Shown here: positions 11,270 through 52,222 of the stretch, piece by piece | How positions within the stretch are numbered: the first letter of the stretch is position 1 | Layout of the letters: each line of letters begins with the position of its first letter | Virus record (IMG/VR): IMGVR_UViG_3300020020_000029 | Span: 1 to 64,000 of that record | Origin: a virus | DNA length: 64,000 nt | Reading direction: 5' to 3' (one strand) | The notes under the pieces: model-generated | What the model was told of the DNA's origin: nothing | What the model saw: the letters and a program-made list of their open reading frames with translations, nothing else | Databases searched by the model: none | Position numbers and translations under genes: made by a program

Positions 11270-11511
11270 ACCTAACAAGAGTAGACCCTGAAATTCAAAA
11301 AGCGTTAGATCATTTTCTTAAATTAATTCATGAAGATATTTATAAGATTCTAGGCGAAGGTTTTGCGATGCAAATACTATTTAATATAGGTATCCCAAAA
11401 GAAAGAGAACAAGAGTTAGGATTAAAGTTACAAGAAGCAAAAATGGTTGTACAACATATGTTAGATAATACACCAAAGTTTCAACCGCCGAACGTGGGCA
11501 GCATTAAATGA
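11266..11511 (+). CDS. small hypothetical protein (81 aa)
   Basis: An 81-residue, helical, AT-rich gene joined to its neighbours by four-base ATGA-type overlaps on both sides, so it is translated together with the sugar operon. No recognised domain. Confidence 0.55.
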   Translation: MNLTRVDPEIQKALDHFLKLIHEDIYKILGEGFAMQILFNIGIPKEREQELGLKLQEAKMVVQHMLDNTPKFQPPNVGSIK

Positions 11512-12536
11512 AAATATTAATCACTGGTGGCACAGGCTCTATAGGCAGAGCGTTAATAGAGAGATTATTACCTCTATCTTGGGTAGAGAAATTATGTATA
11601 TACAGCAGAGATGAGCACAAGCAAGAACAAGTAAGAGAACAATTTAATGATAATGAGAAACTAAGATATTTCATAGGAGACGTTAGAGATTTTGATAGGT
11701 TGTCTCTTGCGCTAAGAAATATAAATTTAATAATACACGCTGCCGCGCTCAAGATAGTCCCAACGGCAGAGTACAATCCATTTGAAACTATAAAAACTAA
11801 TATAGTCGGCTCCCAGAATGTGTGCTTAGCTGCCATAAATAATAAAGGTATTAATTTTGGGTATATGGCAACGAACCATCCTAAAGTATTATTGCTCTCT
11901 ACAGATAAAGCAGTAAGACCTATAAACCTATATGGCGCTACTAAGCTGTGCGCAGAGAAATTATTTATTAGTTCTAATAATATACTAGGACCCGCTGGCC
12001 CTACTTTTTCAGTCGCTAGATACGGAAACGTAGCTAACTCCAATGGTTCAGTTATACAAAAATTCAAACAACAGGCCGAGAAAGGCGAGCAGCTAAAGAT
12101 AACAGACGATAAAATGACTAGGTTTTGGATCACTATAAGCGAAGCTGCGGAGTTTATTATAAAATGTGCAGAACATATGCAAGGTGGAGAAACTTTTGTC
12201 CCTGCCATGCCTTCATTTAGGATTAAAGATTTAGCGCTCGTTATGATGAAAGATTACCCATTAGAGAAACAATGGGTTAGGGTAATTGGTATTCGTAAAG
12301 GTGAAAAACTTTATGAAGAGATTATTACTCCAGAAGAATTTAGAGGGTGTGATTTTGACCAAGACAGAGGCATGTTTGTTATAAACCCGCCTAAGAGCGA
12401 AGCACACAAGAGAGATTTATCCGACCAAGCGTTGAGAATAGTAACTGATGGATTAAACAGCGACTCAGAGCCGGTTCCTAAACTAGGGCAACCAGAACTT
12501 TATGAAAAACTAAAAGACTTAGGAGTAATAGAATGA
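11508..12536 (+). CDS. PseB/FnlA-type UDP-sugar 4,6-dehydratase
   Basis: A 342-residue short-chain dehydrogenase fold. It has the nucleotide-binding GGTGSIG (7-13), catalytic STDK (131-134) and YGATK (142-146), followed by ARYGNVANSNGSV and TRFWITISEAAEFI, which are typical of the PseB/CapD/FnlA branch. PseB converts UDP-GlcNAc to UDP-2-acetamido-2,6-dideoxy-L-arabino-hexos-4-ulose, the first step to pseudaminic acid. Related enzymes feed L-FucNAc, so substrate is inferred from neighbours. Length is normal (about 330-340). The start overlaps the upstream gene by four bases. Confidence 0.88.
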   Translation: MKILITGGTGSIGRALIERLLPLSWVEKLCIYSRDEHKQEQVREQFNDNEKLRYFIGDVRDFDRLSLALRNINLIIHAAALKIVPTAEYNPFETIKTNIVGSQNVCLAAINNKGINFGYMATNHPKVLLLSTDKAVRPINLYGATKLCAEKLFISSNNILGPAGPTFSVARYGNVANSNGSVIQKFKQQAEKGEQLKITDDKMTRFWITISEAAEFIIKCAEHMQGGETFVPAMPSFRIKDLALVMMKDYPLEKQWVRVIGIRKGEKLYEEIITPEEFRGCDFDQDRGMFVINPPKSEAHKRDLSDQALRIVTDGLNSDSEPVPKLGQPELYEKLKDLGVIE

Positions 12537-13165
12537 ACGCTTTCAAAATAGTTAAAGATTTTGAGCAAGCTGTATGTGAGTACACTGGCGCACCTTTCTG
12601 TGTGGCTGTTAATAGCTGCACTAATGCTCTCTTTCTTTGCCTAAAATTCTATGCTAGGAGGTATGGCGGTACTGCTGTATTACTTCCCAAGAAAACCTAT
12701 TTAAGCGTACCTATGCAAGTAATGCATGTAGGGGGTAAACCTATGTTTGAGGATTTAGAATGGTCAGGCATGTATCAATTAAAGCCACTTCCTATATACG
12801 ACTCAGCTAGAAGATTTACCTCTAAGATGTATGTACATCCCATGTATAATAATGGCGGGCCGGATAGACCGCTTTTTATCTGTTTGTCTTTCCATTGGGC
12901 TAAGACATTAGGCATTCAACAAGGCGGCGCTATTTTACACAATTCTAGAGTGGACGATGATTGGTTTAGACGTATGCGCTTCGATGGTCGTACAGAAGGT
13001 GTTGCGCCTAAAGACGATAATATAAGAGAAATCGGATACCACTGTTATATGTCTCCAGAGATAGCCGCAGAAGGATTAGTTAGACTAATGCACTTACCAA
13101 AAGTAAACGAAGACTTACCAAACGATGACTACCCCGATCTATCTCAATTGGAGGTATTTAAATGA
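12533..13165 (+). CDS. miniature DegT/DnrJ/EryC1-family (PseC-like) aminotransferase
   Basis: A 210-residue PLP enzyme, about half the usual 370-400. N-terminal CVAVNSCTNALFL (about 23-35) is the cofactor-phosphate segment. YDSARRF provides the pyridine-binding Asp (D90). SFHWAKTLGIQQGGAI contains the Schiff-base Lys (K124). The spacing between these is compressed and the C-terminal domain is largely missing. In context it should aminate the 4-keto sugar made by the PseB-like enzyme. The catalytic core is conserved, so it may be a streamlined enzyme and not a relic. Coupled by ATGA on both sides. Confidence 0.75.
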   Translation: MNAFKIVKDFEQAVCEYTGAPFCVAVNSCTNALFLCLKFYARRYGGTAVLLPKKTYLSVPMQVMHVGGKPMFEDLEWSGMYQLKPLPIYDSARRFTSKMYVHPMYNNGGPDRPLFICLSFHWAKTLGIQQGGAILHNSRVDDDWFRRMRFDGRTEGVAPKDDNIREIGYHCYMSPEIAAEGLVRLMHLPKVNEDLPNDDYPDLSQLEVFK

Positions 13166-13599: not shown

Positions 13600-14619
13600 A
13601 TGAACTTTCATCGCGAAGACGGATCGCCCTTTCCTTTTATTGTAGCCGAGCTAGGCTGCAGCCACAGTGGCGGGCTAGAGAACGCTAAAGAGCTTATACA
13701 TGAAGCTAAAAGAGCTGGGGCAGACGCAGTTAAGATACAAGTATATACACCTGACGATATGACTTTAAATCTAGATACAAAAGATTTTATAGTGAAAGAC
13801 GGTTTATGGAAGGGGAAGAAACTTTATGACTTATACGAAAAAGCTCAAACGCCCTATAAGTGGGTGGGGCCTCTGTTTGACTACGCTAAATCTATAAATA
13901 TACCTATATTTAGTAGTGTGTTCTCCGAGAAAGGTTTAAAACACTTAGAAAAGCATAACTGTCTTGCGTATAAAATAGCTTCTTTTGAGATAACTGATCT
14001 TTATCTAATAGAAAAAGTAGCCAAAACAAGAAAGCCTATTATAGTATCTACTGGAATGGCTAGCGCAAAAGACATTAAAGCAGTATTAGACATCACTTAT
14101 GCATCAAGTGCGCATTATCCAATATTGCTTCATTGTATAAGTGCATACCCAGCAAAACAAAGTGAGCTTAGCCTATCAAGAATACCATATTTAAAGAAGT
14201 ATTTTGGTGTAGACGTCGGCTTTTCAGACCACACAGACTCAATTAATACTGGCGCGTACGCTGTTGTAGCTGGCGCGTGTATGATAGAAAAACATATTAG
14301 GCTGATAAATTCACAATCTGAAGATGATAAATTCTCCTTAGACCCTCTCAGGTTTGAGGAGTATGTGGGGAACTGTAGAAATGCCTATGAGTCGTATTTA
14401 CAGGTGCAGCCCAAGGGAGAAGAAAGCTCTAGGCAGTTTAGACGCTCTCTTTATGTAATTAAAGACATAAAGGAAGGTGAAAAGATAACAAACAAAAACG
14501 TAGCAGCTATAAGGCCCGGCTACGGCACGTCTCCCGGCTTTCTTAGGGGCGTGCTGGGGAAGAAAGCTAAAAACGACATAAAGAAGGGAACACCATTTAT
14601 AGCGGGGTTAGTAGAATGA
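13600..14619 (+). CDS. pseudaminic/sialic-type nonulosonate synthase (PseI/NeuB)
   Basis: A 339-residue protein with the NeuB TIM barrel: FIVAELGCSHSGG near the start, GADAVKIQVYTPDDM, YEKAQTPYKW, YKIASFEITD, PIIVSTGMAS and GFSDHT. It ends in a SAF (antifreeze-like) domain (about 278-339; RRSLYVIKDIKEGEKIT, then RPGYG). It condenses a hexose with phosphoenolpyruvate to make a nine-carbon nonulosonic acid. The YEKAxTP motif favours the PseI (pseudaminic) branch over NeuB. Full length. Confidence 0.9.
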   Translation: MNFHREDGSPFPFIVAELGCSHSGGLENAKELIHEAKRAGADAVKIQVYTPDDMTLNLDTKDFIVKDGLWKGKKLYDLYEKAQTPYKWVGPLFDYAKSINIPIFSSVFSEKGLKHLEKHNCLAYKIASFEITDLYLIEKVAKTRKPIIVSTGMASAKDIKAVLDITYASSAHYPILLHCISAYPAKQSELSLSRIPYLKKYFGVDVGFSDHTDSINTGAYAVVAGACMIEKHIRLINSQSEDDKFSLDPLRFEEYVGNCRNAYESYLQVQPKGEESSRQFRRSLYVIKDIKEGEKITNKNVAAIRPGYGTSPGFLRGVLGKKAKNDIKKGTPFIAGLVE

Positions 14620-14918: not shown

Positions 14919-15154
14919 ATAATGACCTAGATGAGTTTGAACAGTATCTATATAAGAAATTAGCAGATTTACAAGCCTCCTATAAAAAGGCTTCTGAGCC
15001 TATTATAAAAGAGTTAATTTACTTAGAATCTTTGAAGCCGCCTAAGCCTGTAATAATTATGCTTACAGAGGAGCAACAAGAAAAAATGAAGGAAAGAATG
15101 AAGGAAAGAATAAAGGAAAGAATAAAGGAAAGAATAAATGCGATACTGCGTTAA
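14915..15154 (+). CDS. small coiled-coil protein with TTG start and repeat tail (79 aa)
   Basis: The start is a TTG overlapping the previous stop (TTGA), with AGGAGG ideally placed at 14905-14910. The 79-residue protein is helical and charged. It ends in four near-identical copies of (M/I)KER, encoded by a 12-bp tandem repeat. Repeat number may vary among relatives. Function unknown. Confidence 0.5.
   Translation: MNNDLDEFEQYLYKKLADLQASYKKASEPIIKELIYLESLKPPKPVIIMLTEEQQEKMKERMKERIKERIKERINAILR
15086..15133 (+). repeat. 12-bp tandem repeat, four copies
   Basis: ATGAAGGAAAGA occurs twice, then ATAAAGGAAAGA twice, in frame in the 3' end of the coiled-coil gene. The repeat purine tract also carries AAGGAAAG sequences just upstream of the ATG at 15138, so it may double as the ribosome binding site of the amidotransferase gene. 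Confidence 0.85.
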
Positions 15155-16253
15155 GTGCCTTTATCCTAATACTAAGCCTGATCTTTTCTTCAATGACAAA
15201 GGTGTATGCTCTGCGTGTACAGCATTTGAAGCTCGTGAGAAAACAGATTGGGGTAAGCGAGAAAAAGAATTTGAGCTTTTGTGCGATGGTTTAATCCAAG
15301 AAGATTGGCGATACCACTGCATAGTTCCCGTTTCTGGAGGCAAAGATTCCCACTATCAAGTTATAAAGGCTAAGGAATATGGGCTTAATCCATTGGCTGT
15401 GTGCGCCGTTACTGACGATTTATCCTCTATTGGTAGAAAAAATCTTAATAATATATCTACATTATGCGATACAATCGAAATTAATCTCAATAGTGTGGTA
15501 AGGAGAAAAATAAATGCCTACACCCTCAAAGAAATTGGAGATATCAGTTGGGCTGAGCATATTACTATCTTTACTCTGCCTGTGTATATTAGCAATGCTT
15601 TTGGTATCCCTCTTATAATATGGGGTGAAAACCCTCAAAATGAGTATGGCGGGCCTTATAAATCTCAAACTACGCATAACTTAGATAATAGATGGCTTCA
15701 AGAGTACGGCGGGTTGAATGGGCTCAGAGTCTCCGATCTCATAGACCAGAAGCTATTTACCGACAAAGAACTAGCCATGTATAAGTACCCTTTGAATATC
15801 GGCCAGACCAAGGGCATTTTCTTGGGGCAGTATTTCCCTTGGCACGGCGACGAAAACGCGCGTATAGCTATGCAGCATGGGTTTAAAACATTCTATGGCC
15901 CTGTGGAAGGGATCGGTTATGACTACGAGAACATTGATAACTACCAAACAGGTATTCATGATTATTTTAAATATCTCAAATTTGGTTTTGGTAGGTGTAC
16001 TGATTTGGTTAATAACCATATTAGACGAGGCCACATCAGTAGGGAGGAGGGTAAAGAAATTGTTATGATATATGATGGGGTATTCCCCAAGACTTATCTA
16101 GGAACAAGCCTAGAAGATATACTCTCTAAAATAAACATGAGCGTTAGTGAGTTTTTAGTAGTATGTAATAAATTCGCGAATAGGGAGTTATTTGACTGTA
16201 CCTCTGGCAGACCCCCGTGGCCTCTATTCAGGAGGAATATAAAAGATGTATAA
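15138..16253 (+). CDS. N-acetyl sugar amidotransferase (WbuX/PseA/WbpG family)
   Basis: A 371-residue PP-loop ATPase. It has a Cys4 zinc site (C4, C7, C24, C27: CVKC...CSAC) and the pyrophosphate loop SGGKDS (66-71), followed by GENPQNEYGG and LGQYFPW, characteristic of the WbuX/PseA family. Members convert an N-acetyl group of a sugar to an acetamidino group, using ammonia passed by HisH/HisF-like partners. PseA makes the acetamidino form of pseudaminic acid. A HisF-like partner follows, but no HisH-like glutaminase was found here. Normal length. Confidence 0.88.
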   Translation: MRYCVKCLYPNTKPDLFFNDKGVCSACTAFEAREKTDWGKREKEFELLCDGLIQEDWRYHCIVPVSGGKDSHYQVIKAKEYGLNPLAVCAVTDDLSSIGRKNLNNISTLCDTIEINLNSVVRRKINAYTLKEIGDISWAEHITIFTLPVYISNAFGIPLIIWGENPQNEYGGPYKSQTTHNLDNRWLQEYGGLNGLRVSDLIDQKLFTDKELAMYKYPLNIGQTKGIFLGQYFPWHGDENARIAMQHGFKTFYGPVEGIGYDYENIDNYQTGIHDYFKYLKFGFGRCTDLVNNHIRRGHISREEGKEIVMIYDGVFPKTYLGTSLEDILSKINMSVSEFLVVCNKFANRELFDCTSGRPPWPLFRRNIKDV

Positions 16254-16437
16254 GGAATTTATAACTGTAGAGATGAAATACCTGATAAAAGATACTAATA
16301 TTAAACTACAAATAAGTACAGTAATTGATCCATTCGAACTTGATAAACAATTAATAGATAAAACTTTGTGTCTATTAAACACAATGTTTATGAGCATGAA
16401 AAAAGAAATAGAGAACAGATGCTCAAATCTAGAATAA
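16246..16437 (+). CDS. small hypothetical protein (63 aa)
   Basis: A 63-residue protein overlapping the amidotransferase end by 8 bases and the following gene by 19. It has alternating hydrophobic and charged residues and no recognised motif. Overlap on both sides supports coupling but reduces certainty. Confidence 0.45.
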   Translation: MYKEFITVEMKYLIKDTNIKLQISTVIDPFELDKQLIDKTLCLLNTMFMSMKKEIENRCSNLE

Positions 16438-17117
16438 TCCCGACACTATTATGGGATGGAGTACAGTGTGTGAAGCCTGTAGCCTTTGAAAGGCCCTATC
16501 GTAAATTAGGCCCAATAGAGCAATATATACAAGTCATAGAGCGCCGTAACGTAGATGAATTAATTCTTATAGACATAGAGGCGACAAATGAAGGAAGAAA
16601 ACCGAAATTTGAAGCTATTAACCGCTTTGCTTCTAATCTTTATTGCCCTCTTACTGTTGGTGGTGGAGTATCATCTTTGGACGACATCAAAGAATTGCTC
16701 GCTAATGGAGCAGATAAAGTTGCCATACGATCGATACCCGGATTAATCCCAGGGGCTGTAAAAAAATTTGGAGCACAGGCTATTGTATCTGTGATAGACT
16801 ATCAAGAAGGAGATAATCCTTGGGTTACTGCTGTGTATAATCAAAATTTAGGGGCAGGAGAAATATTATTAACTTCTATGTTTAGAGATGGAGGGTTCCT
16901 TGGATATGATCTGGATACTATTAGACTTGTTTCAAACGCCGTTCGTATTCCTGTCATTGCTAGCGGTGGCTGTCGCTATTCTTCTGATATGTTGGCGGCG
17001 ATAAGAGCAGGCGCTAGCGCTGTAGCTGCTGGAAGTATGTATTTATATACCGATATAACGCCTAGAGACTCCGCTAAACTTTTGAAAGAAAAAGGCGTGA
17101 ATGTGCGCTATGAGTAA
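16419..17117 (+). CDS. HisF-like cyclase homologue, WbuZ type
   Basis: A 232-residue TIM barrel. The start at 16419 gives MLKSRIIPTLLWDGVQCVKP; a longer in-frame start runs deep into the upstream gene. It keeps DELILIDIEA, LTVGGGVSSLDDI, GADKVAIRS and IPVIASGG. True HisF has Asp11 in RIIPCLD; here the matching residue is Leu, as in the WbuZ branch, which does not make imidazole glycerol phosphate. WbuZ-type proteins pair with WbuX/PseA amidotransferases, the gene two places upstream. Ammonia channelling would normally also need WbuY/HisH. Confidence 0.82.
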   Translation: MLKSRIIPTLLWDGVQCVKPVAFERPYRKLGPIEQYIQVIERRNVDELILIDIEATNEGRKPKFEAINRFASNLYCPLTVGGGVSSLDDIKELLANGADKVAIRSIPGLIPGAVKKFGAQAIVSVIDYQEGDNPWVTAVYNQNLGAGEILLTSMFRDGGFLGYDLDTIRLVSNAVRIPVIASGGCRYSSDMLAAIRAGASAVAAGSMYLYTDITPRDSAKLLKEKGVNVRYE

Positions 17118-17829
17118 GATAATATATCTCAAAGACAAAAAGAAAGAAAAACCTATTAACATAGGTATAGTCATTCAAGCTCGTATGACAAGTGAGCGCT
17201 TTCCTGGAAAATCTATGGCGATCCTTCATGGAAAGCCCGTTATACAGTGGACAATGGAGCGCGCTAAGAAAATTAGAGCAGGTAAACGGTTTGTTAACCC
17301 TTCTGTGATATTAGCTGTACCTGACACAGACGAAAGCGAGCCTATGCTCGTGCTGGCAGAAAGCTTAGGCGTGAGCAACTTCGTTGGAGATGAGCTAAAT
17401 GTCCTTAAACGATATTATGACTGTGCAAGATTTTTTGGATTTGATGTTATTATGCGTCTTACTGGCGACTGTCCTTTCATTGATAGCCGTGTTTGTTCCG
17501 AAGTTCTTCAACTTCTTCTTTGGCGTAAGCTTGATTATTGTTCTAATATTTTTCCTAGACGTACATATCCCAGAGGTTTGGACTGCGAAGTTTTCACGAT
17601 GGATTGTTTAGATGCAGCTTATCAGCTAGCAGAAACAGACTACGACAAAGAGCACGTTACGCCCTGGATGCAGAATACAAAAGAGCTGCTAAAAGCAAAC
17701 GTGGAACAGAAAGAAGATAAATCTAGTGAAAACTGGTGCATAGATTATCCTTGGGATATATCTAGGATCGAAACAGCTATAGGTACGAGTAAGTTTAAGC
17801 TCATACTAGTAGATGGAGACAAAAAATGA
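17101..17829 (+). CDS. cytidylyltransferase-family protein (PseF/SpsF-like)
   Basis: A 242-residue nucleotidyltransferase: IGIVIQARMTSERFPGKSMA (about 21-40), then MRLTGDCPFID and RRTYPRGLDCEVF. This is closest to the SpsF/CMP-KDO synthetase group (cytidylyltransferase family). In context it would activate the nonulosonic acid as its CMP sugar, the role of PseF/NeuA. SpsF-like proteins are less well characterised than PseF, so the substrate is inferred. ATGs at 17101 and 17110 both work; the first has AAAGG upstream. Confidence 0.78.
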   Translation: MCAMSKIIYLKDKKKEKPINIGIVIQARMTSERFPGKSMAILHGKPVIQWTMERAKKIRAGKRFVNPSVILAVPDTDESEPMLVLAESLGVSNFVGDELNVLKRYYDCARFFGFDVIMRLTGDCPFIDSRVCSEVLQLLLWRKLDYCSNIFPRRTYPRGLDCEVFTMDCLDAAYQLAETDYDKEHVTPWMQNTKELLKANVEQKEDKSSENWCIDYPWDISRIETAIGTSKFKLILVDGDKK

Positions 17830-18278
17830 GAGAGTTATACTTAGACACTGAATTTAATGGGTTTAAGGGTGAATTTATCTCTATGGGCATTCACGACCCA
17901 AAAGGGGCAGATTTTTATGCAGTTATTGATAGTCCGTATAGGCCAAACGAGTTTGTGACTAAGCATGTTTTACCTAATTTAAAGGACACTCCGATTGATT
18001 CAATTCTCTTCAGAAAAGAGCTAACATATTACTTTAGTAGTAAATTCGATGAATGTTGTGTATACGCAGACTGGCCAGAAGATTTTACCCATTTACTGAG
18101 TTTCTTTTGTGGGCCTAAAGGTAGAAAATATATTAAGAGAATGACTTTTAAACTAATTACTACTCCAGATATTCATATATCTAAGACACCTCACAACGCT
18201 CTTGAAGATGCTATAGCATTCTATAAGAATCATCAAGAGATGCTGAAGGAAGAGAGTCAAAATGACCAAACAAGTTGA
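17826..18278 (+). CDS. DEDD-type 3'-5' exoribonuclease-like protein
   Basis: A 150-residue protein. LYLDTEFNGFKGEFISMGI supplies D7 and E9 of Exo I, YADWPEDF carries the Exo II Asp, and PHNALEDAIAF the Exo III His and Asp. This matches the small Rv2179c-like exoribonuclease group found in phages. It lies in the middle of the sugar operon with ATGA coupling, an odd position for a nuclease. It may help degrade host RNA. Confidence 0.72.
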   Translation: MRELYLDTEFNGFKGEFISMGIHDPKGADFYAVIDSPYRPNEFVTKHVLPNLKDTPIDSILFRKELTYYFSSKFDECCVYADWPEDFTHLLSFFCGPKGRKYIKRMTFKLITTPDIHISKTPHNALEDAIAFYKNHQEMLKEESQNDQTS

Positions 18279-18894
18279 GTTGTGGCGTGGACCATTTGGT
18301 GACCAATATCATGAGCGCAATAAAGCTACTGACGAAGAGATAGAGAAGAGAGTCTCTTTCTGGAAAGGCGCTCTACAGCTTATATATACAAGGTGCGATG
18401 GTGCTGTGCCTAGAAGTATCTTAGAGATAGGCGCCGGTAATGGAGCCAACTTGTTGGCGTTGGGAAAGATATTCGGAGAAGGGTTAGGTCCTTATGAATT
18501 GTATGCTACTGAAATAAACGAAGAGGCTAAGGTTAATCTAACTACTATACCAAAGGTAACTGTACTTAATGAAATACCGACTGGTAAATCTATGGATTTA
18601 GTATTTACTTACGGTGTGTTAATACATACTCATCCTGCACATTTACTTAGTTTACAAACTAAGATATATAACTCTTCTGCTAGATTTATTATGTGTGCAG
18701 AGTATTTTTCTCCCTGCACAAGGCCCATAGAATACAGAGGCGAGAAAGAAGCCATGTGGGCAGATGACTTTGGGGGCCGTTGGTTGGATAGTTTTAAATT
18801 ACGACTTTTAGGGTGTGTATTCTGTTGGAAGCGAACAACAGGTTTAGATAATGTTACCGTATGGGCCTTCGAGAAAATGGAGTCAATGCAGTGA
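18262..18894 (+). CDS. pseudaminic acid biosynthesis-associated methyltransferase
   Basis: A 210-residue SAM-dependent methyltransferase. The N-terminus (ELWRGPFGDQYHERN) and ILEIGAGNGANLLAL (about 53-67) match the methylase family that accompanies pseudaminic acid clusters (pattern FGxxYxxRN). DLVFTYGVLIHTHP is the post-motif strand. In context it should add a methyl group to the nonulosonic acid or a precursor. Overlaps the exonuclease gene by 17 bases. Confidence 0.82.
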   Translation: MTKQVELWRGPFGDQYHERNKATDEEIEKRVSFWKGALQLIYTRCDGAVPRSILEIGAGNGANLLALGKIFGEGLGPYELYATEINEEAKVNLTTIPKVTVLNEIPTGKSMDLVFTYGVLIHTHPAHLLSLQTKIYNSSARFIMCAEYFSPCTRPIEYRGEKEAMWADDFGGRWLDSFKLRLLGCVFCWKRTTGLDNVTVWAFEKMESMQ

Positions 18895-19067
18895 TAGAAG
18901 TATGGGTGCTTGTATTAAATATCTCATATGGATCGCCACAAATACTACAAGTGCCCGGTTTTGTCTCTAATCTTGAGTGTCAAGACGCTGGAAAGAAAAT
19001 AAAAGAGAGCTTCTATGCACCCCATTGGGTAAAATACACCTGTGTCAGCCAAGGAGGAATTAAGTAA
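18891..19067 (+). CDS. small conserved protein with GTG start (58 aa)
   Basis: A GTG overlapping the methyltransferase stop (GTGA), with GGAG upstream, gives 58 residues. An ATG at 18861 is in frame but lies inside the previous gene. The protein has a hydrophobic start (VIEVWVLVLNIS) and a C-terminal DAGKKIKESFYAPHWVKYTC, a pattern I have seen in small proteins of phages and Rhizobiales. Possibly periplasmic. Function unknown. Confidence 0.55.
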   Translation: MIEVWVLVLNISYGSPQILQVPGFVSNLECQDAGKKIKESFYAPHWVKYTCVSQGGIK

Positions 19068-19585
19068 TGCTAAATATCGCTCTTGTAGATGTCAGAAACG
19101 TGGGGGAGCCTACTAAAACTTACTATGAGGCATTTTTATATGAGCTTCTGAAAGAGCGTAAGCCCTGGCAGAACATTTCTCATATAAGCCTACCGCCTTA
19201 TGAAGAGCACGTTACGCACGTGAGAACTTCAGACCATAAAGATTGGTTCTTGATCCAAGACATAGATACTAGGAAGTTAATAGGTAGTATTTACTTAGGC
19301 GTAGATAATAATATAGGTATACATATTAAAGAAGAATTTTATAGAATGGGCTACGGTAGAGTAGCCATAAGAACGCTTATGGCGCATAGGCCCGAGGTAG
19401 TGCGCTTCAAAGCGCATATAGCTCCAAACAACAGCCCTTCGCTCTGTTTCTTTATTAACTTAGGGTTTAGGTACGTCAGAACAGACATAGGCCCCGACGA
19501 GGATGTAACTCAGTTTGTATACTCTATTTTAAACCCGACTTACGACGAGGCGGCTGCGTCTGGTGAATCATCCGAACCGTCTTAA
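19067..19585 (+). CDS. GNAT-family N-acetyltransferase, possibly PseH-like
   Basis: The 172-residue protein has the GNAT core: LIGSIYLGVDNNIGIHIKEE, then RMGYGRVAIRTLM (acetyl-CoA pyrophosphate loop, Q/R-x-x-G-x-G/A relaxed) and NNSPSLCFFINLGFRYV (motif B). It ends the nonulosonate operon and could perform the N4-acetylation done by PseH between the aminotransferase and the hydrolase, or acylate another amine. The start has AAGGAGGAATTAAGTA before the ATG. Its 3' end overlaps the convergent gene on the other strand. Confidence 0.75.
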   Translation: MLNIALVDVRNVGEPTKTYYEAFLYELLKERKPWQNISHISLPPYEEHVTHVRTSDHKDWFLIQDIDTRKLIGSIYLGVDNNIGIHIKEEFYRMGYGRVAIRTLMAHRPEVVRFKAHIAPNNSPSLCFFINLGFRYVRTDIGPDEDVTQFVYSILNPTYDEAAASGESSEPS

Positions 19586-43658: not shown

Positions 43659-44504
43659 TTATCCTATTCCAAACATAGATGTTATCGCGTTGCCCCCCAC
43701 ACTGCCCCCACCACTAGTAGGAAGCTTAGCCACAGAGCCTACTGTATTGAATATTCCGCTCATCATGGCGTTTTGAGCTTTGACTTTCTCTTGATAATTT
43801 TTAAACGCTTGTTCTTGCGCGGCTAAGGCAGCTCCTTGATAGTCAGCTGCGCCTACATTCGCTGTAGGCGTACTATCAAAACTTAAATCCCCAGGCGCTC
43901 CGTAAGAGGCTAATTTCATAGACATTTCCGCAGGGAGCGCCCATTGATCTTTAGCCATCTGATGCGCTTGTGGAACAAAATCTTGTAATAACTTACCCTT
44001 AGTTAAATTCTGTTGATTGCTCTGTGCATCTACTTGCTGTTGATAAGCAGGCGTTCCGGGAAGTATTCCTTGATTCCTCAAATGTGTATCTAGCTGCTCT
44101 CTTTCGGGAGTCATAAACCTCTCTATAAGAGGCATATGATTAGAGATGAACTGATTAGTTAGAGCGTCTGTGCCTTCAGGGCCTAGAAAAGCAGGGTCTT
44201 GCCCCATTCTTGAAGAAATATCATTCCATAAGTCAGCACCGCCACCACCCACATCACCTTTAGTACCATAGAACTGGTCAAATAACGCCTGCATAACTGG
44301 AGAATATTCTTTACTCTGTTCATAGTCGGGTAGCCCTGTGATGGGGTCAATAGTAGAACTATAGGATTTAGTCCCAAATGGATCCGATTGATTCATCGTC
44401 CCAAGCGAAAGCGACTGCTGGCCACCTTTAAGGTTATAGCCTTGCTGAGTCTCAGCTACTTGGCCCGGATTAATAGGAGGCGGAGCGTTAGGTTTGCTGG
44501 GCAT
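43659..44504 (-). CDS. putative structural/internal virion protein
   Basis: A 281-residue protein with N-terminal GYNLKGGQQSLSLGTMNQSD, a central helical part (FMTPEREQLDTHLRNQGILP) and a glycine-rich C-terminus. This type of protein accompanies the internal virion proteins of podoviruses. Function unknown. Confidence 0.55.
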   Translation of the reverse strand: MPSKPNAPPPINPGQVAETQQGYNLKGGQQSLSLGTMNQSDPFGTKSYSSTIDPITGLPDYEQSKEYSPVMQALFDQFYGTKGDVGGGGADLWNDISSRMGQDPAFLGPEGTDALTNQFISNHMPLIERFMTPEREQLDTHLRNQGILPGTPAYQQQVDAQSNQQNLTKGKLLQDFVPQAHQMAKDQWALPAEMSMKLASYGAPGDLSFDSTPTANVGAADYQGAALAAQEQAFKNYQEKVKAQNAMMSGIFNTVGSVAKLPTSGGGSVGGNAITSMFGIG

Positions 44505-44934
44505 TTCTAATCCACTTTAAACCATCTTCTTTAAAAATAGCGTAACTTAGCGCATCTACTAAGCTACCTTTATTGTCTAGGTAGTAATCTTTATGCCTAC
44601 CTTCATACTTGAAGCCTATTTTCTCTACAATCTGAGATATTTTTTCGTTGGTGCAATACACTCTAGCAGTGAGCCTTACGCAGCCTATTTGTTTAAATAC
44701 ATAGTCTGCTATATCACTAAGAGCTTTTCTATTTAAACATTTAGGTCCATTGAAGTGTATTTCTACATTAGGGCCTGTATAATTGTGGTATATAGCTTGC
44801 GCTACTACTTTGCCATTTTTGAACCAGCCCATTGCAGTATACGGCGCCTCTACAGGATGGCCTGTTTCTCTATTAAAATATCCAGCTATCATTATGCCGA
44901 CGCTATCCGTATTAGTACCATATATAAGATGCAT
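44488..44934 (-). CDS. GNAT-like acetyltransferase in the virion operon
   Basis: A 148-residue protein with VAQAIYHNYTGPNVEIHFNG, RKALSDIADYVFKQIGCVRL and EKISQIVEKIGFKYEGRHKD, the GNAT fold with a C-terminal IGFxxEG. Similar genes lie among the structural genes of other podoviruses. The substrate is unknown; it might acetylate a virion or host protein. Confidence 0.7.
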   Translation of the reverse strand: MHLIYGTNTDSVGIMIAGYFNRETGHPVEAPYTAMGWFKNGKVVAQAIYHNYTGPNVEIHFNGPKCLNRKALSDIADYVFKQIGCVRLTARVYCTNEKISQIVEKIGFKYEGRHKDYYLDNKGSLVDALSYAIFKEDGLKWIRNAQQT

Positions 44935-46616
44935 TAGATAGGCCCACCAAACTCAAGAGCTATCTCAAACATGTTCAATCTAAGAGTGGCTAGCCCTTCG
45001 CCGCTCCTAAGAGTTGCACCATTGCCATCAAATACAGCGGTATCAAATACAGCGGTATCAAATACCGAAGATTGTGCTACTTCGCTGGCAGTTCCACCGC
45101 CTGCCAGATTGACTACCATTCTTACAGCTAGCGCTGTGCCTAAAGCAGCACAGCTTTGCCAATTTAGTACTGTAACTAACCCTGTAGACCATTCAGATGC
45201 ATCCCACAGCGACACATCCCATAACGCACCGCTTGGAGTTAAGATCGTAACTGGCGCTGATGGAGAACTATCTTCAAAGTCTACATCTATCTGTATAGAC
45301 GGTGTTAAAGTACCATCTGCCACCAAGAATGGTCTAATCATTTTTGCGTGTTTTAGCCTTCCAGGTTGTTCAAAATAGTTAAACGCACACTTAACGTCGT
45401 ATAATATAGGCTCAACTAAGTCTAGAGCGCCTGCGTAAGCTAAATTTACATTACCATTATTATCCCCAAAATAAAGGCTCTCGTTAAATAATTCAAAACA
45501 ATTAGCGTTCCACCCCTCAAAAGCAGTCCAGGCCCCTGTAAGCGCGTTTTGTACTCTTTGTATTTGAGTATTGCTCTCAACCTGGGGCACATTGAGAATA
45601 AGAAGTCCTTGTTGAGGGAATGATATAAGCTGCCAGCCAAAGTTACCAGAGTAACTCTGCGCATCTGTCATCAATAAGTTCTGTATTCTATTGGTCACAG
45701 CTACCGATCTAGACGCTGCTGGATCGAACGACAAAACTTGCGATATAGGTAATATACCTTGTACCGTAATCACAAAAAGATCAGAGCCGTACTTACAGAG
45801 ACACCTTGATCCAATAGGGTCCGCTAAATCAAAAGTACCTACTAGCGCCCACATATTAGCATTAGTGGGGTCAGTGCCTTTATATTGTATAACTTGGCCC
45901 TCTGTAGTCACAAATATAGCTGTGTCGTCAGGGCCATTGCCCCCATCGAGAGTCCAAGACCCCATAGCTAACACCGACCCGCCCCTCGTCATAAATGAGC
46001 CTAAATCTAGGGCAGTAGCGGCTCCTTGTACAGCGTCAGTAGTTAAGAAGTAAACTTTAGTAGAATTATTAGGTATTAGCCACACTCTTCTCTTAAAAGC
46101 ATGTATATTAAAAAATATGTCGCTAGTCCCTGTTATTACGTTCTCTGCCCAAATTGTCCCATTCCAACTCTGTACGTTTGAATTCAGTCCATTAACTGCT
46201 AAAAGATAATTAGCTCCTAACGCAGGAGTAAAATTTATATACTGAAATTTATCCCCGCCGAACCCTGAAGCCGCTAGAGTGGGTACGCCATAAATGCTTA
46301 CGTCCCATATTTCTGTGCCCGATGCGGCAAACAATTGAGGCGATGCTAGGGGGGGTCTATACTGCATGAGGCTATTTACGGGCGAAGTAGTAAACCCTTG
46401 CGCCCAAGCGTTGTATCCCCCACGTAATTCTAGCCAGCCTGTACGAGGCACCCAATTAATCATCGATGCAGCATATTTAGGCTCCATCGCAGATAAAGGC
46501 ATAAGCGCGTCTATCCCGCCAATCGGGGCAGGGACTATTTTAACGTCTACATCTTGGTCTAAATACGCGCCTTTAGCTTGCCATTTATCCGCGTATTTTT
46601 TACGAATATATGCCAT
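44934..46616 (-). CDS. podovirus tail nozzle / stabilisation protein
   Basis: A 560-residue protein. The N-terminus has PIGGIDALMPLSAMEPKYAA and TGWLELRGGYNAWAQG, followed by repeated strand blades, as in P22 gp10-like or T7 gp12-like nozzle proteins. A short in-frame DNA repeat near its C-terminus encodes VFDTA in tandem. It follows the tail-tube gene, as expected. Confidence 0.75.
   Translation of the reverse strand: MAYIRKKYADKWQAKGAYLDQDVDVKIVPAPIGGIDALMPLSAMEPKYAASMINWVPRTGWLELRGGYNAWAQGFTTSPVNSLMQYRPPLASPQLFAASGTEIWDVSIYGVPTLAASGFGGDKFQYINFTPALGANYLLAVNGLNSNVQSWNGTIWAENVITGTSDIFFNIHAFKRRVWLIPNNSTKVYFLTTDAVQGAATALDLGSFMTRGGSVLAMGSWTLDGGNGPDDTAIFVTTEGQVIQYKGTDPTNANMWALVGTFDLADPIGSRCLCKYGSDLFVITVQGILPISQVLSFDPAASRSVAVTNRIQNLLMTDAQSYSGNFGWQLISFPQQGLLILNVPQVESNTQIQRVQNALTGAWTAFEGWNANCFELFNESLYFGDNNGNVNLAYAGALDLVEPILYDVKCAFNYFEQPGRLKHAKMIRPFLVADGTLTPSIQIDVDFEDSSPSAPVTILTPSGALWDVSLWDASEWSTGLVTVLNWQSCAALGTALAVRMVVNLAGGGTASEVAQSSVFDTAVFDTAVFDGNGATLRSGEGLATLRLNMFEIALEFGGPI
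45027..45066 (-). repeat. 15-bp tandem repeat inside the nozzle gene
   Basis: ATCAAATACAGCGGT (plus strand) occurs twice in full and once in part, in frame, giving VFDTAVFDTAVFD. It may be a recent slippage duplication in the C-terminal domain. Confidence 0.8.
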
Positions 46617-47578
46617 TAAGCCACATTTGGACCTGTGGGGCCAGGAAAGAACCCATCTTGCACATTTGCAGGTGATATAAATATGGGGCTCTGACGCTTA
46701 ACCATACTTAGAGTTTGCCTGCCCCCGTCTCTCGAAATTAATCTCTCTATGTATTCGTCGTTCTCTGAGCGAATAGGCATCCAATTAAAACCTTTCTGCG
46801 CCCAGAATCGCCATTTTATCTCATTTATAATGGCTCTATCGTTTAAAATAGGTATATCTGAGTCCGCTGTGAAAAACTCTGCCGTTGTTGTACCTCCAGT
46901 GACATATACAGAGTATTTAGAGACATATTCAAATACTATCTGTATAGGTTGAGTAATTTCAGCAGGAGGGGGCCATATTCTATAATTGTTTGCAAGAGCC
47001 CCTATCTGCCTAAAATGACGCCTCGGGCCTGTAGTCACAATTCCTGATCTATGCCATTGATCTAATTGGGGGCTGTCTGGCCCCAATAATTCCCATCTAT
47101 TAGTTCTATCCCACCACGTTCTATTTAAAAAGTGACTAAAGTCCGTAGGTTCAGGGTATGTATCTTTAGAAAAGACTAAATCTGTACCTACAGCGGCCCC
47201 AGTAGCCAACATAGTCATAGTTATTTGTGTGGGGCTATCTACAGACGCTATTCGAGCTGCTGCTGGTATCTCGCTTCCAGACACCATAAAATAGTTTGCT
47301 TGGAGAGAAGCTGTACTAGGTATATTACTAATAACAGCGGAATCTAGCGCTACGTCGCCTGTAGTTTCAACAGGAGGCGTAACTGCTAAATTATATTCTT
47401 TAGTTAAAGCAGTCCATCCCGTAGGATGGCGCTGCCTTAGTTCTTCTATGGCTTGATTGGCGAAACCATACATTTGCATAGTAGTGAGCTGCTGAGAACT
47501 CACCACTACGCTGTCTTGAACAAGCCCTAATTCTAACTGAGCTTGATTTATTATTTGTAATAATGTCTTCTGAGGCAT
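46616..47578 (-). CDS. podovirus tail tube/adaptor protein
   Basis: A 320-residue protein: LLQIINQAQLELGL, YGFANQAIEELRQRHPTGWT and RRHFRQIGALANNYRIWPPP are typical of the T7 gp11/P22 gp4-like tail adaptor. It joins the portal-head assembly to the nozzle encoded next. Its stop overlaps the following start by one base. Confidence 0.75.
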   Translation of the reverse strand: MPQKTLLQIINQAQLELGLVQDSVVVSSQQLTTMQMYGFANQAIEELRQRHPTGWTALTKEYNLAVTPPVETTGDVALDSAVISNIPSTASLQANYFMVSGSEIPAAARIASVDSPTQITMTMLATGAAVGTDLVFSKDTYPEPTDFSHFLNRTWWDRTNRWELLGPDSPQLDQWHRSGIVTTGPRRHFRQIGALANNYRIWPPPAEITQPIQIVFEYVSKYSVYVTGGTTTAEFFTADSDIPILNDRAIINEIKWRFWAQKGFNWMPIRSENDEYIERLISRDGGRQTLSMVKRQSPIFISPANVQDGFFPGPTGPNVA

Positions 47579-47603: not shown

Positions 47604-48020
47604 TTATACGCTGGTCTTTACGAACGCCCAGGTGCTTGTATTTATATTTTTGTAAATTGCAACATGAGTAGTAAGGAGAGACACGCCAGTAGTGCCAGCG
47701 GTGGCTGCACCATTACCAATAAGAGTAACAGCACTACCAGCAGCATTATTAGCCGCGTATACTGCGAGCGTAGCACCTTGGTTATTAACGATAGTATACT
47801 CATCGCCAGGGAGACACCCATTCGCACCGCCTACTTGGGGTAGTTTAATGCCACTACCAGAATTAGAGGCAAGAACAAAGTAGATTCCTTGCCTGCCAGG
47901 AATCTGAGTAGCCGAGCCAGCAGAAGTGCCAGCGATAGTAACAGCTTGGATATTCATGCCCACTCGTGCAGCAAGCGGATGTGCCATACCCAAGCCCATT
48001 AAATTCTCTGACTTAGCCAT
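47604..48020 (-). CDS. small capsid-associated/decoration-like protein (138 aa)
   Basis: A 138-residue beta-rich protein (NIQAVTIAGTSAGSATQIPG, then GIYFVLASNSGSGIKLPQVG). The pattern resembles head-decoration proteins of phages. It lies directly after a DUF115/Maf-like gene and is rich in Ser and Thr, making it a candidate glycosylation target. This is inference. Confidence 0.5.
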   Translation of the reverse strand: MAKSENLMGLGMAHPLAARVGMNIQAVTIAGTSAGSATQIPGRQGIYFVLASNSGSGIKLPQVGGANGCLPGDEYTIVNNQGATLAVYAANNAAGSAVTLIGNGAATAGTTGVSLLTTHVAIYKNINTSTWAFVKTSV

Positions 48021-48831
48021 TTAATTCACCCTTTTCAATTGCTTTGGCGCGGGCTACTTTTAAAAACTCTGCTAATAGCCCGCCACCTTTTACTTCAATG
48101 TGTAGTCTAGCGGAATACTCAGTTAACATATATTTGAAATCGAACAACTGCGCTAACATATAGCTAGCTACTTTGAAAGTTTTGCCCTCTGGCTCTAGCT
48201 TTATTTCTGTTATGTCTCCTAGCGTCTCGTAATCTGGGTCCAGAAATTCATAAGCATGGTGTTTATAGTCGTCTGTAAGACAAGTGTCAAACCCAAATAA
48301 ATGTATGTTCCTAAAGCCCATCATCATGGCCATGCCGATGGCTCTTGTGCCTACTGTACAGCCACCTACTACTTTAATTTCGTCTTTTAGAAAGACTTCA
48401 TCATCGAACTCTTTACCTGACGCAGCGTGCCATATATAAGGCGAATGACAATCTAAATGCTCGAATACTTTTTCATGACACTGAGAAGCGATTAAATACG
48501 TAATTGGCCACTTAGCTTTTTGTAAATAACGCACCATAAATAGATCAGGATCGCATACTATACAATATTTAGGTATAACTCCTTGTTCTATTACATAATC
48601 ATGTGCTGATCCACACACCATTGTATCTTTATACTTATGTAAATCACCTATAGTGTGTTTTAAGGACGGCCCACCGCCAACTAGGGCGATGGGCCGTTCC
48701 TCGCGCCAGTCTGCGCAAGTATGAATAGGTGCTAGGAGATGCTTTCTGGCGTCTAAAATCTGTGCCTTTAGTGTCTCTAAAGGTACGGCAGTAGTTATCT
48801 CTACGCCTTCTATTTCTTTAAGTGAGTGCAT
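48013..48831 (-). CDS. DUF115/Maf-like glycosyltransferase homologue 1
   Basis: A 272-residue protein. RPIALVGGGPSLKHTI (51-57 the VGGGPSL loop), VCGSAHDYVIEQGVIPKYCI, IVCDPD and GGCTVGTRAIGMAMMMGFRN fit the DUF115 (MptE/Maf) Rossmann domain. Maf proteins transfer pseudaminic or legionaminic acid to flagellin Ser/Thr. The second copy is at 49609-50541. Located among capsid genes, so transfer of the phage's own nonulosonic acid to virion proteins is the natural hypothesis. It lacks the accessory domains of long flagellar Mafs. Confidence 0.72.
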   Translation of the reverse strand: MHSLKEIEGVEITTAVPLETLKAQILDARKHLLAPIHTCADWREERPIALVGGGPSLKHTIGDLHKYKDTMVCGSAHDYVIEQGVIPKYCIVCDPDLFMVRYLQKAKWPITYLIASQCHEKVFEHLDCHSPYIWHAASGKEFDDEVFLKDEIKVVGGCTVGTRAIGMAMMMGFRNIHLFGFDTCLTDDYKHHAYEFLDPDYETLGDITEIKLEPEGKTFKVASYMLAQLFDFKYMLTEYSARLHIEVKGGGLLAEFLKVARAKAIEKGELNG

Positions 48832-49612
48832 TTTGATCCTTACCGGCTAAAGGATCAGTAATTAAATCTTCTACTGTAGGCGGCGAAGTAGTTCTCTTTT
48901 TCTTTAAGACTGCCTTAGACGCCTCTTGCGTAGGGTGATTGAGATTTATTCGCTCCGATTGCGCATCGTATCCTATAACAAAAGGAGGCTGTTTAGACGC
49001 GCTGATAGGATCATTAAATTTCATCAAAAGATGATCTAGCTGCGCCTTCAATTGGCCTATCTGTTGCGTTTGTACTTGCATCTCGTTTCTTAGATTGTCG
49101 TTCTCTTGACGCAATTTAAGGAACGCAGTGCCTTTAGAGGCGCTATCTATGTATTGATTCGCTCTATTTACATACTCTTGAGCACCACGGCCAATAGAAT
49201 CAATAGCGTGCGCAGAAAGTTTAGCACACTGCTCGATGGTATATACGCCAGAGGCGCGTAAATTCTCTGCTACAGCGGGATAGTTGGGGAATAGTAAATC
49301 TATAGGAGTGCCCTCGGGTATTTGTGTCCTATTTTGAACAAAAGCAGCCCATTTAGACGCAAACCTAAGTTTATCGTTGTCATTAATAGGTCTATCGATT
49401 TTATTAAGATTCTCTCCAGGCTGCTGGATCATAATAAAGATTTTATCTTCGTGGTAAGGCCTACCATGCTCCAACGAAAGAGCTGGATTTTCTACTGACC
49501 TATTATAGAACATAACCAGAAGCTGGTCGTCGCTGCCGTACTGTGCGATACCGAAGTTTTGACCTTGCATATTTATTCTGGTTGGGCCAGAAAGATGAGA
49601 CAGTTCGTTCAT
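48818..49612 (-). CDS. coiled-coil virion-cluster protein between the Maf-like genes
   Basis: A 264-residue protein with a globular N-terminus (GTPIDLLFPNYPAVAENLRA, then ASGVYTIEQCAKLSAHAIDS, similar to a helix-hairpin-helix-like segment) and a coiled coil (about 165-200, RQENDNLRNEMQVQTQQIGQ). I have seen similar genes beside capsid genes in other phages; function unknown. Its ends overlap both Maf-like genes. Confidence 0.55.
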   Translation of the reverse strand: MNELSHLSGPTRINMQGQNFGIAQYGSDDQLLVMFYNRSVENPALSLEHGRPYHEDKIFIMIQQPGENLNKIDRPINDNDKLRFASKWAAFVQNRTQIPEGTPIDLLFPNYPAVAENLRASGVYTIEQCAKLSAHAIDSIGRGAQEYVNRANQYIDSASKGTAFLKLRQENDNLRNEMQVQTQQIGQLKAQLDHLLMKFNDPISASKQPPFVIGYDAQSERINLNHPTQEASKAVLKKKRTTSPPTVEDLITDPLAGKDQNALT

Positions 49613-50541
49613 TGTAGCGTACCTTTTTCGAGTTCTTCTATTTTCTTCTTCGCCTCCTCGTTCAATTGCATTTTAAAACTTTCTTCTTTTATCATTCCTA
49701 TTAAATCAGGTAATAGACCTTCGCCATAAAAAGTAGCAGAGAATAGATTATCATACTCTATCATGAATTTTCTAAAATTTTCTGCTTGCGCTAGATGATA
49801 GCCTAAACACCTATAGGTCTTCTCACTAGGCCCATTCCAAGACATACCTATTTTTAGTTTGTATACTTCGCCTTGATTATCTTTCTCTTCTTGAGTAGAT
49901 AAATCGTAAGCATAGCTTTCCTCTTCACTCAGACAGCTATCGAACCCGAACATATGAAGGTTTCTATAGCCAAGCGTAATTGCCATAGATACGCTTCTAA
50001 GCCCTATAGTACAGCCGCCGCCTATGCCTTGATACTCGCCGTTAGGCTCTATTTTAGCTAAGTGTTTAGTATAGTCATCACTGTGGCAGTGCCACATTAC
50101 TATGGGGCAATCCTCTAAATATTTAAATATCTTAGGATCACACGCTGAAGCTATCAAATATTTGACTTCTAAGTGCTTTAATTTTAAATAATTTATACTT
50201 ACCGGGTCAGGATCGCAAATAGCAGAATAAGTAGGAATAATCCCATTGATAATAAGGTAATCGTGAACCGATCCACAAGCTATGACTGTCCTAAATTTTC
50301 TTAGCTCTTCTAATTGGCCTTTAAGCGAAGGCCCGCCGCCTACAAGAGCTATCGGTAATTCATTCTTTACTTTTTTAAACTCTGGTAGCTCATGAAATCT
50401 AGTGTATTTAGTCTTAATGTTCTCAAATATGTTCTCTAAAGATACACTAGAAGGCGTAGCTGCTGTAGTGCCTACCCCTCCTAGTGGAGAATAATCAAGA
50501 TAGGGTCGAGATATCTGGGCAGTCTCTTGCGATACTTCCAT
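49609..50541 (-). CDS. DUF115/Maf-like glycosyltransferase homologue 2
   Basis: A 310-residue paralogue of the protein at 48013-48831. It has VGGGPSL (67-73), ACGSVHDYLIINGIIPTYSA, ICDPDPVSINYL and GGGCTIGLRSVSMAITLGYR. An extra N-terminal extension (about 40 residues) is present. The two copies are well diverged and flank a coiled-coil protein, next to a beta-rich head protein and the major capsid gene. Different acceptor or donor specificity is possible. Confidence 0.72.
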   Translation of the reverse strand: MEVSQETAQISRPYLDYSPLGGVGTTAATPSSVSLENIFENIKTKYTRFHELPEFKKVKNELPIALVGGGPSLKGQLEELRKFRTVIACGSVHDYLIINGIIPTYSAICDPDPVSINYLKLKHLEVKYLIASACDPKIFKYLEDCPIVMWHCHSDDYTKHLAKIEPNGEYQGIGGGCTIGLRSVSMAITLGYRNLHMFGFDSCLSEEESYAYDLSTQEEKDNQGEVYKLKIGMSWNGPSEKTYRCLGYHLAQAENFRKFMIEYDNLFSATFYGEGLLPDLIGMIKEESFKMQLNEEAKKKIEELEKGTLQ

Positions 50542-50574: not shown

Positions 50575-51144
50575 TTAGACAGATGCAGTTGTCTTCATGT
50601 AACCAACCATAACAAACTCGGCAGTAGTCCCCGAGCTTGTTCCAGCGGCTGTCACGATAACGATATTCTGCACCTGTAGAGCTGTCGCAGAAGCAGTAAG
50701 CGCTCCCGCCGTGGCTACGTTGATGTATAACTGAGCACCACGGGTAGCAGAGGGGTTAATCATTACACTAAATCCCCCCCTAGCTATCATAAGTGCCCAG
50801 AAATAATCACCATTACCACCCGTACCACCGTCCGCAACCGTGCTCTTAAAGTGTGCGATACCATAAGAGTACGATTGAGAGGCTGCTAACGCAGAAGTAA
50901 TGTTATTAGCCTTAAATAAATGGTCAATTGCAACCACGTTTAAAGCCGTGACCGTAGCGGATGCTTGAACAAACATCCACTGCGAGCCACCGATACCTTG
51001 TGCAGGTTCGCCCAATCTTGGCCTGCTATCGCCACCGCCCGCAGGATACTCGGGAAACGACGCAGTAGCAAAGAATTGGGTTACAAACATAAGATCGTCG
51101 CCGATCTTAGGGTCGGTAGCGTACCAGTTTGCATATAGAGTCAT
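50575..51144 (-). CDS. head-associated beta-rich protein, possible decoration protein
   Basis: A 189-residue protein rich in Thr, Ala and Gly strands (GSQWMFVQASATVTALNVVA, then YINVATAGALTASATALQVQ). It sits directly after the major capsid gene, where capsid decoration or head-fibre proteins often lie. Ser/Thr-rich, so it too could be a modification target. Confidence 0.5.
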   Translation of the reverse strand: MTLYANWYATDPKIGDDLMFVTQFFATASFPEYPAGGGDSRPRLGEPAQGIGGSQWMFVQASATVTALNVVAIDHLFKANNITSALAASQSYSYGIAHFKSTVADGGTGGNGDYFWALMIARGGFSVMINPSATRGAQLYINVATAGALTASATALQVQNIVIVTAAGTSSGTTAEFVMVGYMKTTASV

Positions 51145-51190: not shown

Positions 51191-52222
51191 TTATGTACCT
51201 AATAGGCCTTGTAAGAACGCGTTGGATAGCGTCATGTTCCCAGCCCACCCTAACAGGCGAACCATCGCATCCTGATTAACAGAGAAACGATCAGGATCGA
51301 GAGGAACCATGTTACGAGCAGCGTGAGGACGCCAGTGAATATAATTCGTGTTCAAGAAGTACATGAACGACGAAGGTACACCACCAACTGCTGTAGTTGA
51401 GCTAGAAGTCTGGAAGGGTATAGGATCATTACTAAACCCTTGGAATCCACCATCTAACACAACATCGCTATTCAGGAATTTAAGAGACGTATAACCAGCT
51501 TCAGCTAAATCTGGTGCGCCGCCCTCAGTAGTTACTCGCTGAATAGACTGCATAGCGTTCAGATAGAACGTATACATATTGTTATCGGCAACGAGTAGAT
51601 CAGGAAAATCGCGGCCTCTAACAAGCTGTACCCAAAGAGAGTTCATATACTGAATAATGTTTGCAGAGCTGGTAGCAGCGCCACCATTAGTAAGCGCACT
51701 GAAAACAAGATTCCTATAGAACGCCCATTGCGATCTATCGATACCGCCAACGGTGCCAGTGGTAGGAGATGCAGCGACTAGAAGCTGCAATCCACCAATA
51801 GAACCAGCCACGCTACCGTCGCCATATACACCATTAGAAAGTCCGTTCATGAACGTCTGTTCGCCGTTCTCAACACGACTCTCTAAGAGGTCTATAATCG
51901 CCTCTTCGCCACTATTTTGCAGTTCCTCTAGGCCAGAGATGGAAACCGCTAACGCGGCCTGGCGAATAGGAAACTCCGCAGCAGTAAATACTTGACTCGG
52001 GTTAATATTAACAGTTTGATAGCCCGAATACCAAGTGAACGTAGTGTTATTCGCATAGTTCAATTCCTGAACGATAGTGCGACCACCACTAAACGACTTA
52101 ATGCGGCCCTTCTTGTTCAAACGAGCAAGAAGCGCATTGTTACGAGATACGTTGTCTTGCAGAACTCCAGTTCTGTTACGCAACGTAGTAGTAACGACTT
52201 CTGAAAGATTAGGTGCGGGCAT
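51191..52222 (-). CDS. major capsid protein
   Basis: A 343-residue protein: TTTLRNRTGVLQDNVSRNNA at the N-terminus, QTFMNGLSNGVYGDG, FPDLLVADNNMYTFYLNAMQ and IHWRPHAARNMVPLDPDRFS. This is the HK97-fold major capsid pattern seen in many podoviruses. It lies between the scaffold gene and the decoration-like gene. More GC-rich codons than its neighbours fit high expression. Confidence 0.85.
   Translation of the reverse strand: MPAPNLSEVVTTTLRNRTGVLQDNVSRNNALLARLNKKGRIKSFSGGRTIVQELNYANNTTFTWYSGYQTVNINPSQVFTAAEFPIRQAALAVSISGLEELQNSGEEAIIDLLESRVENGEQTFMNGLSNGVYGDGSVAGSIGGLQLLVAASPTTGTVGGIDRSQWAFYRNLVFSALTNGGAATSSANIIQYMNSLWVQLVRGRDFPDLLVADNNMYTFYLNAMQSIQRVTTEGGAPDLAEAGYTSLKFLNSDVVLDGGFQGFSNDPIPFQTSSSTTAVGGVPSSFMYFLNTNYIHWRPHAARNMVPLDPDRFSVNQDAMVRLLGWAGNMTLSNAFLQGLLGT

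Follow-up and report, generated by a model that had tools for sequence, protein, structure and literature searches.

Maf-like DUF115 genes in the head operon of an uncultured soil phage and a distant pseudaminate-type sugar operon: a putative system for virion glycosylation

The genome of an uncultured soil phage encodes two Maf-like DUF115 proteins among its head genes and, at a distance, an operon for a pseudaminate-type sugar. We consider it probable that the phage glycosylates its own virion, with the Maf-like proteins as transferases of a phage-made pseudaminate derivative. The observations behind this reading are gene content, protein family, predicted fold, conserved position, co-retention in relatives and signs of purifying selection, and from these we infer the sugar, its acceptor and the transferase activity. 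The DNA analysed (the window) is a stretch of 64,000 nt that makes up the greater part of a 66.5-kb virus record. A wider proposal, that a whole phage lineage makes its own modified pseudaminic acid and fixes it to the capsid with Maf-like enzymes encoded in the head operon, as one case of a general glycan slot after the coat gene that DUF115 enzymes and glycosyltransferase fusions occupy in several unrelated head lineages, has about an even chance of being right.

The head module lies on the minus strand in the order portal, scaffold-like protein, major capsid protein (MCP; 51191..52222; phrog_9953, 9e-105), p189 (50575..51144), maf1 (49609..50541), cc (48818..49612), maf2 (48013..48831), p138 (47604..48020) and tail proteins, with one tail protein (46616..47578; phrog_6013, 2.5e-26) marking the downstream edge of the cassette. 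The genes maf1 and maf2 encode Maf-like proteins of the DUF115 family (PF01973), cc encodes a 264-aa coiled-coil protein that belongs to the core of Mx8-like phages (Mx8 p50; phrog_20268, 5e-12), p189, next after the capsid gene, encodes a decoration-like protein, and p138 encodes a small protein. According to the coordinates, the ORFs overlap by 4 to 14 bases at the maf1-cc, cc-maf2 and maf2-p138 junctions, and because of these overlaps the four genes are probably translated from one transcript. The preliminary description had reported two DUF115 ORFs with the motifs VGGGPSL and GGxTxGxRxxxMAxxxGxRN, their position around a coiled-coil ORF in the head module, and nonulosonate-type sugar genes 30 kb off. 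All three statements were borne out: both ORFs are present and contain the motifs (GGCTVGTRAIGMAMMMGFRN; GGCTIGLRSVSMAITLGYRN), the MCP gene is upstream and the tail genes are downstream, and the sugar cluster occupies 11508-19585(+), about 30-39 kb away, with a PseI that exceeds its equivalog cut-off. Elsewhere on the minus strand, a GNAT-like gene (44488-44934(-)) follows the stabilisation protein; it is conserved in the clade, and Mx8-like isolates have an annotated acyltransferase in the corresponding position.

Both DUF115 proteins exceed the PF01973 cut-off of 34.6 bits (maf1, 79.3 bits, 4e-22; maf2, 75.3 bits, 6e-21) and are paralogues with 34% identity. A single-sequence search of the PDB with maf1 returned the Magnetospirillum Maf structure 5MU5 as the top match (2e-7), and a profile of 20 phage DUF115 sequences matched 5MU5 at 4e-9 and archaeal MptE at 1e-4. 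Structure prediction, which the preliminary description had proposed as a check for a Maf fold, gave a maf1 model (AlphaFold, pLDDT 87.7) that is closest to 5MU5 (3e-11), followed by MptE (8SD5) and then by the sialyltransferases ST8SiaIII, CstI and CstII. MptE is an archaeal 6-hydroxymethylpterin diphosphokinase, and the Pfam label of the family is MptE-like. Together with the second rank of MptE in the fold search and the loss of the HH motif in maf1, this label is what speaks for the idea that the DUF115 proteins are pterin kinases, or structural or assembly factors without transferase activity, and that the sugar operon is unrelated to them. This is very improbable, as 5MU5 ranks above MptE in both profile and fold searches, on which ground identity with the pterin kinase was rejected, and the phage genes stand in a sugar-gene context, with glycosyltransferase-like domain fusions at the same slot, and within the clade they are strictly retained together with the sugar operon.

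The alignment of the 20 sequences has GGGPS, CDxD, GGCT and GxD among its invariant segments. The histidine of the HHAY motif is present in 9/9 maf2 and in 9/11 maf1 sequences, the maf1 of the studied phage and that of L008 having SYAY. With SY in place of the HH, the maf1 of the studied phage may be altered or inactive, and maf2, in which HHAY is intact, is the likelier active copy of the two. NG86 estimates of dN/dS, where computable and with dS saturated, are about 0.07 to 0.23, which is well under 1, and the genes thus look maintained. Because the proteins are much shorter (310 aa for maf1 and 272 aa for maf2) than the 666 residues of 5MU5, they are called Maf-like here and not Maf. Judging from this length and from the weak match of maf2 to the PseD domain model (NF050051, 2e-7, far under cut-off), the large multi-domain build with extra flagellin-recognition regions is absent in both. 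There is also no linkage to flagellin genes, as both flanks consist of phage head and tail genes.

The sugar operon is encoded on the plus strand and begins with a PseB-like UDP-GlcNAc 4,6-dehydratase (11508..12536; best match TIGR03589, 344 bits, under the cut-off of 408) and a short, PseC-like DegT-family aminotransferase of 210 aa (12533..13165; PF01041, 5e-20). These are followed by the pseudaminic acid synthase PseI of the NeuB family (13600..14619; TIGR03586, 386.5 bits, over the equivalog cut-off of 340.3), a WbuX-type N-acetyl sugar amidotransferase (15138..16253; TIGR03573, 288 bits, over the cut-off of 203), a HisF/WbuZ-like amidation partner (16368..17117; TIGR03572, 180 bits, under cut-off), and a KdsB-like cytidylyltransferase, or CMP-sugar synthetase (17101..17829; PF02348, 7e-22). 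The last two genes encode a pseudaminic acid biosynthesis-associated methylase (18262..18894; TIGR03587, 118.8 bits, over the cut-off of 112.1) and a GNAT-like protein, possibly a PseH-type acetyltransferase (19067..19585; PF13302, 2e-4, under cut-off), which stays with the operon in relatives. The product is probably a pseudaminate-type sugar with acetamidino and methyl modifications. It is named only to this level because PseB, WbuZ and PseC are all matched under the respective equivalog cut-off and the proteins scanned gave no family match to PseG or PseH; the missing steps may be supplied by the host. The bacterial CMP-pseudaminic acid pathway (PseB-C-H-G-I-F, with acetamidino and methyl modification) is matched over cut-off by PseI, WbuX and the TIGR03587 methylase, whereas the short DegT protein, the KdsB-like cytidylyltransferase, the unfound PseG and the sub-cut-off PseB differ from it. 

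Two proteins of the operon are unusually built. The short length of the DegT protein (12533-13165(+)) is conserved, at about 202-270 aa, in nearly all of the relatives as well as in other phages with the operon, and the lysine motif SFHWxK-LGIxxGGAIL is conserved in nine records; ordinary DegT-family aminotransferases have about 360-390 aa, and the short form is possibly a minimal PLP enzyme. A short NeuB/PseI of about 218 aa, in which the SAF domain and some of the barrel are missing, occurs in G013, G016 and G022 (L071 9477-10124; L072 8023-8685; L234 2911-3567).

Relatives were collected by a capsid-protein scan of viral contigs, which gave 20 loci. Apart from the studied phage, eight distinct records (L007, L008, L009, L011, L012, L014, L015 and L016) have the genes maf1, cc, maf2 and p138 at the same place and in the same order, and an order kept in eight distinct relatives makes this a cassette far beyond chance. 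L014 has an extra maf1, and L019 and L080 have maf1 alone. The DUF115 tree separates maf1 (99/93) from maf2 (100/99), a topology consistent with a single duplication, after which the L019/L080 branch lost maf2. The other two genes of the cassette were considered as partners of the Maf-like proteins. A role of cc as a Maf-specific helper is ruled out, since its profile matches in 8/8 Mx8-like isolates tested (e.g., Mx8 p50 at 1e-34) and it is a core gene in these Maf-less phages. For p138, which is kept after maf2 across the clade, a Maf-specific role is weakened by a weak homologue in the Maf-less L021. In G016, the MCP gene is split into two ORFs about 2 kb apart (L019 7914-8126, 10118-10768) with an HNH-like ORF downstream, possibly by an intron or intein. 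A search for DUF115 relatives in isolate phages and plasmids found none, and a genome scan for the host returned only two distant MAG contigs.

Of the distinct clade records, all nine that reach at least 38 kb (G000, G005, G006, G009, G011, G012, G013, G016 and G022) encode NeuB/PseI, with the same eight operon genes. Where NeuB is missing from a clade record, the record is a fragment no longer than 34 kb, and two of these fragments duplicate the studied virus and G009. Both DUF115 and NeuB are absent in eight complete isolates whose capsid proteins are related (including Mx8, Mx9, ppBjS10J-1, BUCT555 and 45A6) and in the 40-kb contig G018. Given their shared ancestry, the clade pattern represents one co-acquisition kept by all sampled members and not nine independent events. 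The background of PseI among isolate phages is low, as relatives were found in 3/50,697 records at 1e-10. The combination occurs again in G124, which has the unrelated capsid family phrog_334 and encodes the operon. In G124 the capsid gene and a 176-aa gene are followed at once by two DUF115 genes with a 348-aa ORF between them. A cytidylyltransferase and an epimerase accompany NeuB in G029, where DUF115 lies a short way downstream of a capsid gene of the phrog_9953 type. The G124 DUF115 proteins fall on another branch of the tree, where the long-branch placement of both G124 and G029 is uncertain. In addition, an 88-kb viral contig (G083, 55707-56189; L216) that may be host sequence has an 871-aa DUF115 ORF near a NeuB gene.

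Across phages in general, an obligate link between DUF115 and nonulosonate synthesis is ruled out from both directions. Outside the clade, 15/16 phage records that have DUF115 and are at least 30 kb long lack the synthase (NeuB/PseI), and these 15 are also without PF02348 and PF01370 (CTP_transf_3 and Epimerase). Conversely, DUF115 was undetected by profile in about 20 phage contigs with much the same operon, and another transferase must therefore serve there; phrog_4603 was negative for this role, and no glycosyltransferase was found among the few proteins scanned. These DUF115-less phages (G087, G092, G098 and others; L158-L195) have a Head-tail_con portal where checked. The preliminary description had suggested examining the co-occurrence of DUF115 and PseI in other phage genomes and regarded an equal presence of DUF115 in phages without nonulosonate genes as evidence against its proposal. 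Co-occurrence holds in the nine long clade records, G124 and G029; the contrary pattern is half realised, with the synthase lacking in 15/16 DUF115 records outside the clade and with the operon present in about 20 phages in which DUF115 was undetected.

The same records bear on whether the DUF115 proteins glycosylate the virion with a host-derived donor while the operon serves another purpose, such as a change of the host surface or supply of a different transferase. Phages that have DUF115 in this head slot but no nonulosonate or epimerase genes of their own would fit such an arrangement, as would the operon in about 20 phages without DUF115, but we regard it as unlikely given the joint retention of DUF115 and the operon in 9/9 distinct long clade records and the recurrence of the combination in G124 and G029.

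Use of the phage-made sugar, the reading preferred here, would be embedded in a wider pattern at the same genomic position. Many NeuB-less Mx8-like contigs have a single DUF115 gene between capsid/p189 and cc/tail, at the identical place, and in phages with phrog_283 coat proteins DUF115 comes soon after the coat gene. As these NeuB-less records indicate, DUF115 can occupy this slot in a phage that makes no nonulosonate of its own. That the slot handles glycans is argued most strongly by the DUF115 fusions found there. Among ten long DUF115 forms scanned, three (L086, L092 and L101) have GT2-like matches, mostly under Pfam cut-offs, with L086 over the cut-off for Glyco_transf_7C, and four (L095, L100, L110 and L114) have Methyltransf_24 over cut-off. 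From sequence comparison, the DUF115-nonulosonate pairing thus appears to be one configuration of a broader head-module glycan slot and not an obligate one. The fusion in L092 (7769-10771) is a 1000-aa head-slot protein that combines two DUF115 domains and a GT2-like region; the middle part of this protein resembles PmgQ of phage P1. Citrobacter phage phiNP (L239, 3484-4669) has an annotated alpha-2,3-sialyltransferase beside a glycosyltransferase-like gene, just upstream of terS/terL.

The position of the slot also bears on the target of the DUF115 proteins. They might act on host molecules, either flagellin or the glycans of the envelope, perhaps as a block to superinfection; location in the head operon would then only set late expression. 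Flagellins are known Maf substrates, and serotype-changing phage glycosyltransferases exist; nevertheless, a host target is improbable, because in at least three capsid families the genes come directly after those for capsid and decoration proteins, and late expression would allow little time for a change of the host surface.

For a virion target, p189 is the best candidate acceptor and p138 the second. p189 is preferred because it follows the capsid gene, varies strongly, and has a model weakly like decoration proteins. Its relatives mostly share 32-41% identity, compared with 80-90% for the capsid protein, and its model (pLDDT 75.6) has a weak likeness to decoration or cement chains of Pam3, HFTV1, BB1, T1 and others, the best fold match having an E-value of 0.018 and none being under 0.001. 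Profile searches of the PDB with p138 and p189 gave nothing significant. Ser/Thr content was uninformative as a pointer to the acceptor (p189, 18.0%; p138, 17.4%; MCP, 16.3%; tail fibres, 21-25%).

In the proposed mechanism, the sugar operon (PseB, short DegT, PseI, WbuX/HisF, cytidylyltransferase, methylase and GNAT) would produce a CMP-activated pseudaminate-type sugar. The Maf-like proteins maf1 and maf2 of the late head operon would be the glycosyltransferases that, while particles assemble, attach this sugar to Ser/Thr residues of head proteins exposed at the surface; the decoration-like p189, p138 or both are the likeliest acceptors. The benefit may concern the charge of the particle surface, adsorption or shielding. 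Evasion of restriction, also suggested in the preliminary description, is an unlikely benefit on general knowledge, since glycans on proteins give DNA no shield from nucleases. The central proposal of that description, that the phage glycosylates its own capsid, gains from the Maf family and fold, the sugar operon, the head position and the fusions, and loses the exclusive link to nonulosonates.

Among known systems, the closest are the Maf nonulosonate transferases of flagellin (Magnetospirillum 5MU5, Campylobacter PseD), which share the DUF115/PF01973 family, the top fold and profile match and a nearby pseudaminate-type operon. The phage proteins differ in that they are much shorter, lie in a head operon, have a putative virion acceptor and score low with the PseD model. 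For flagellin, two-Maf systems, which likewise have two paralogues, are known in which site specificity differs, according to work cited in PMC13317340. In mycobacteriophages, virion glycosylation is established (Freeman et al., 2023, as cited in PMC12619734 and PMC11256854), and phage-encoded glycosyltransferases are thought, in the accounts given there, to modify capsid and tail proteins. The soil phage resembles them in the linkage of a putative phage-encoded glycosyltransferase to virion genes, which is present by family, fold and head-operon position. Unlike those of mycobacteriophages, the putative transferases here are Maf-like, stand inside the head operon and would use a phage-made nonulosonate-type donor. 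A search of open-access papers, with subscription ones largely missing, found none that connects phage heads with DUF115/MptE-like proteins or with nonulosonate synthesis; within this scope, the earlier remark that the exact Maf/nonulosonate pairing is undescribed stands.

Phage capsids are usually regarded as bare protein. If the proposal is true, a nonulosonate coat attached by a flagellin-type transferase would represent a new virion chemistry and would place the Maf family at work outside flagella. DUF115 genes located right after coat and decoration genes would then be a sequence signature that predicts glycosylated phage heads.
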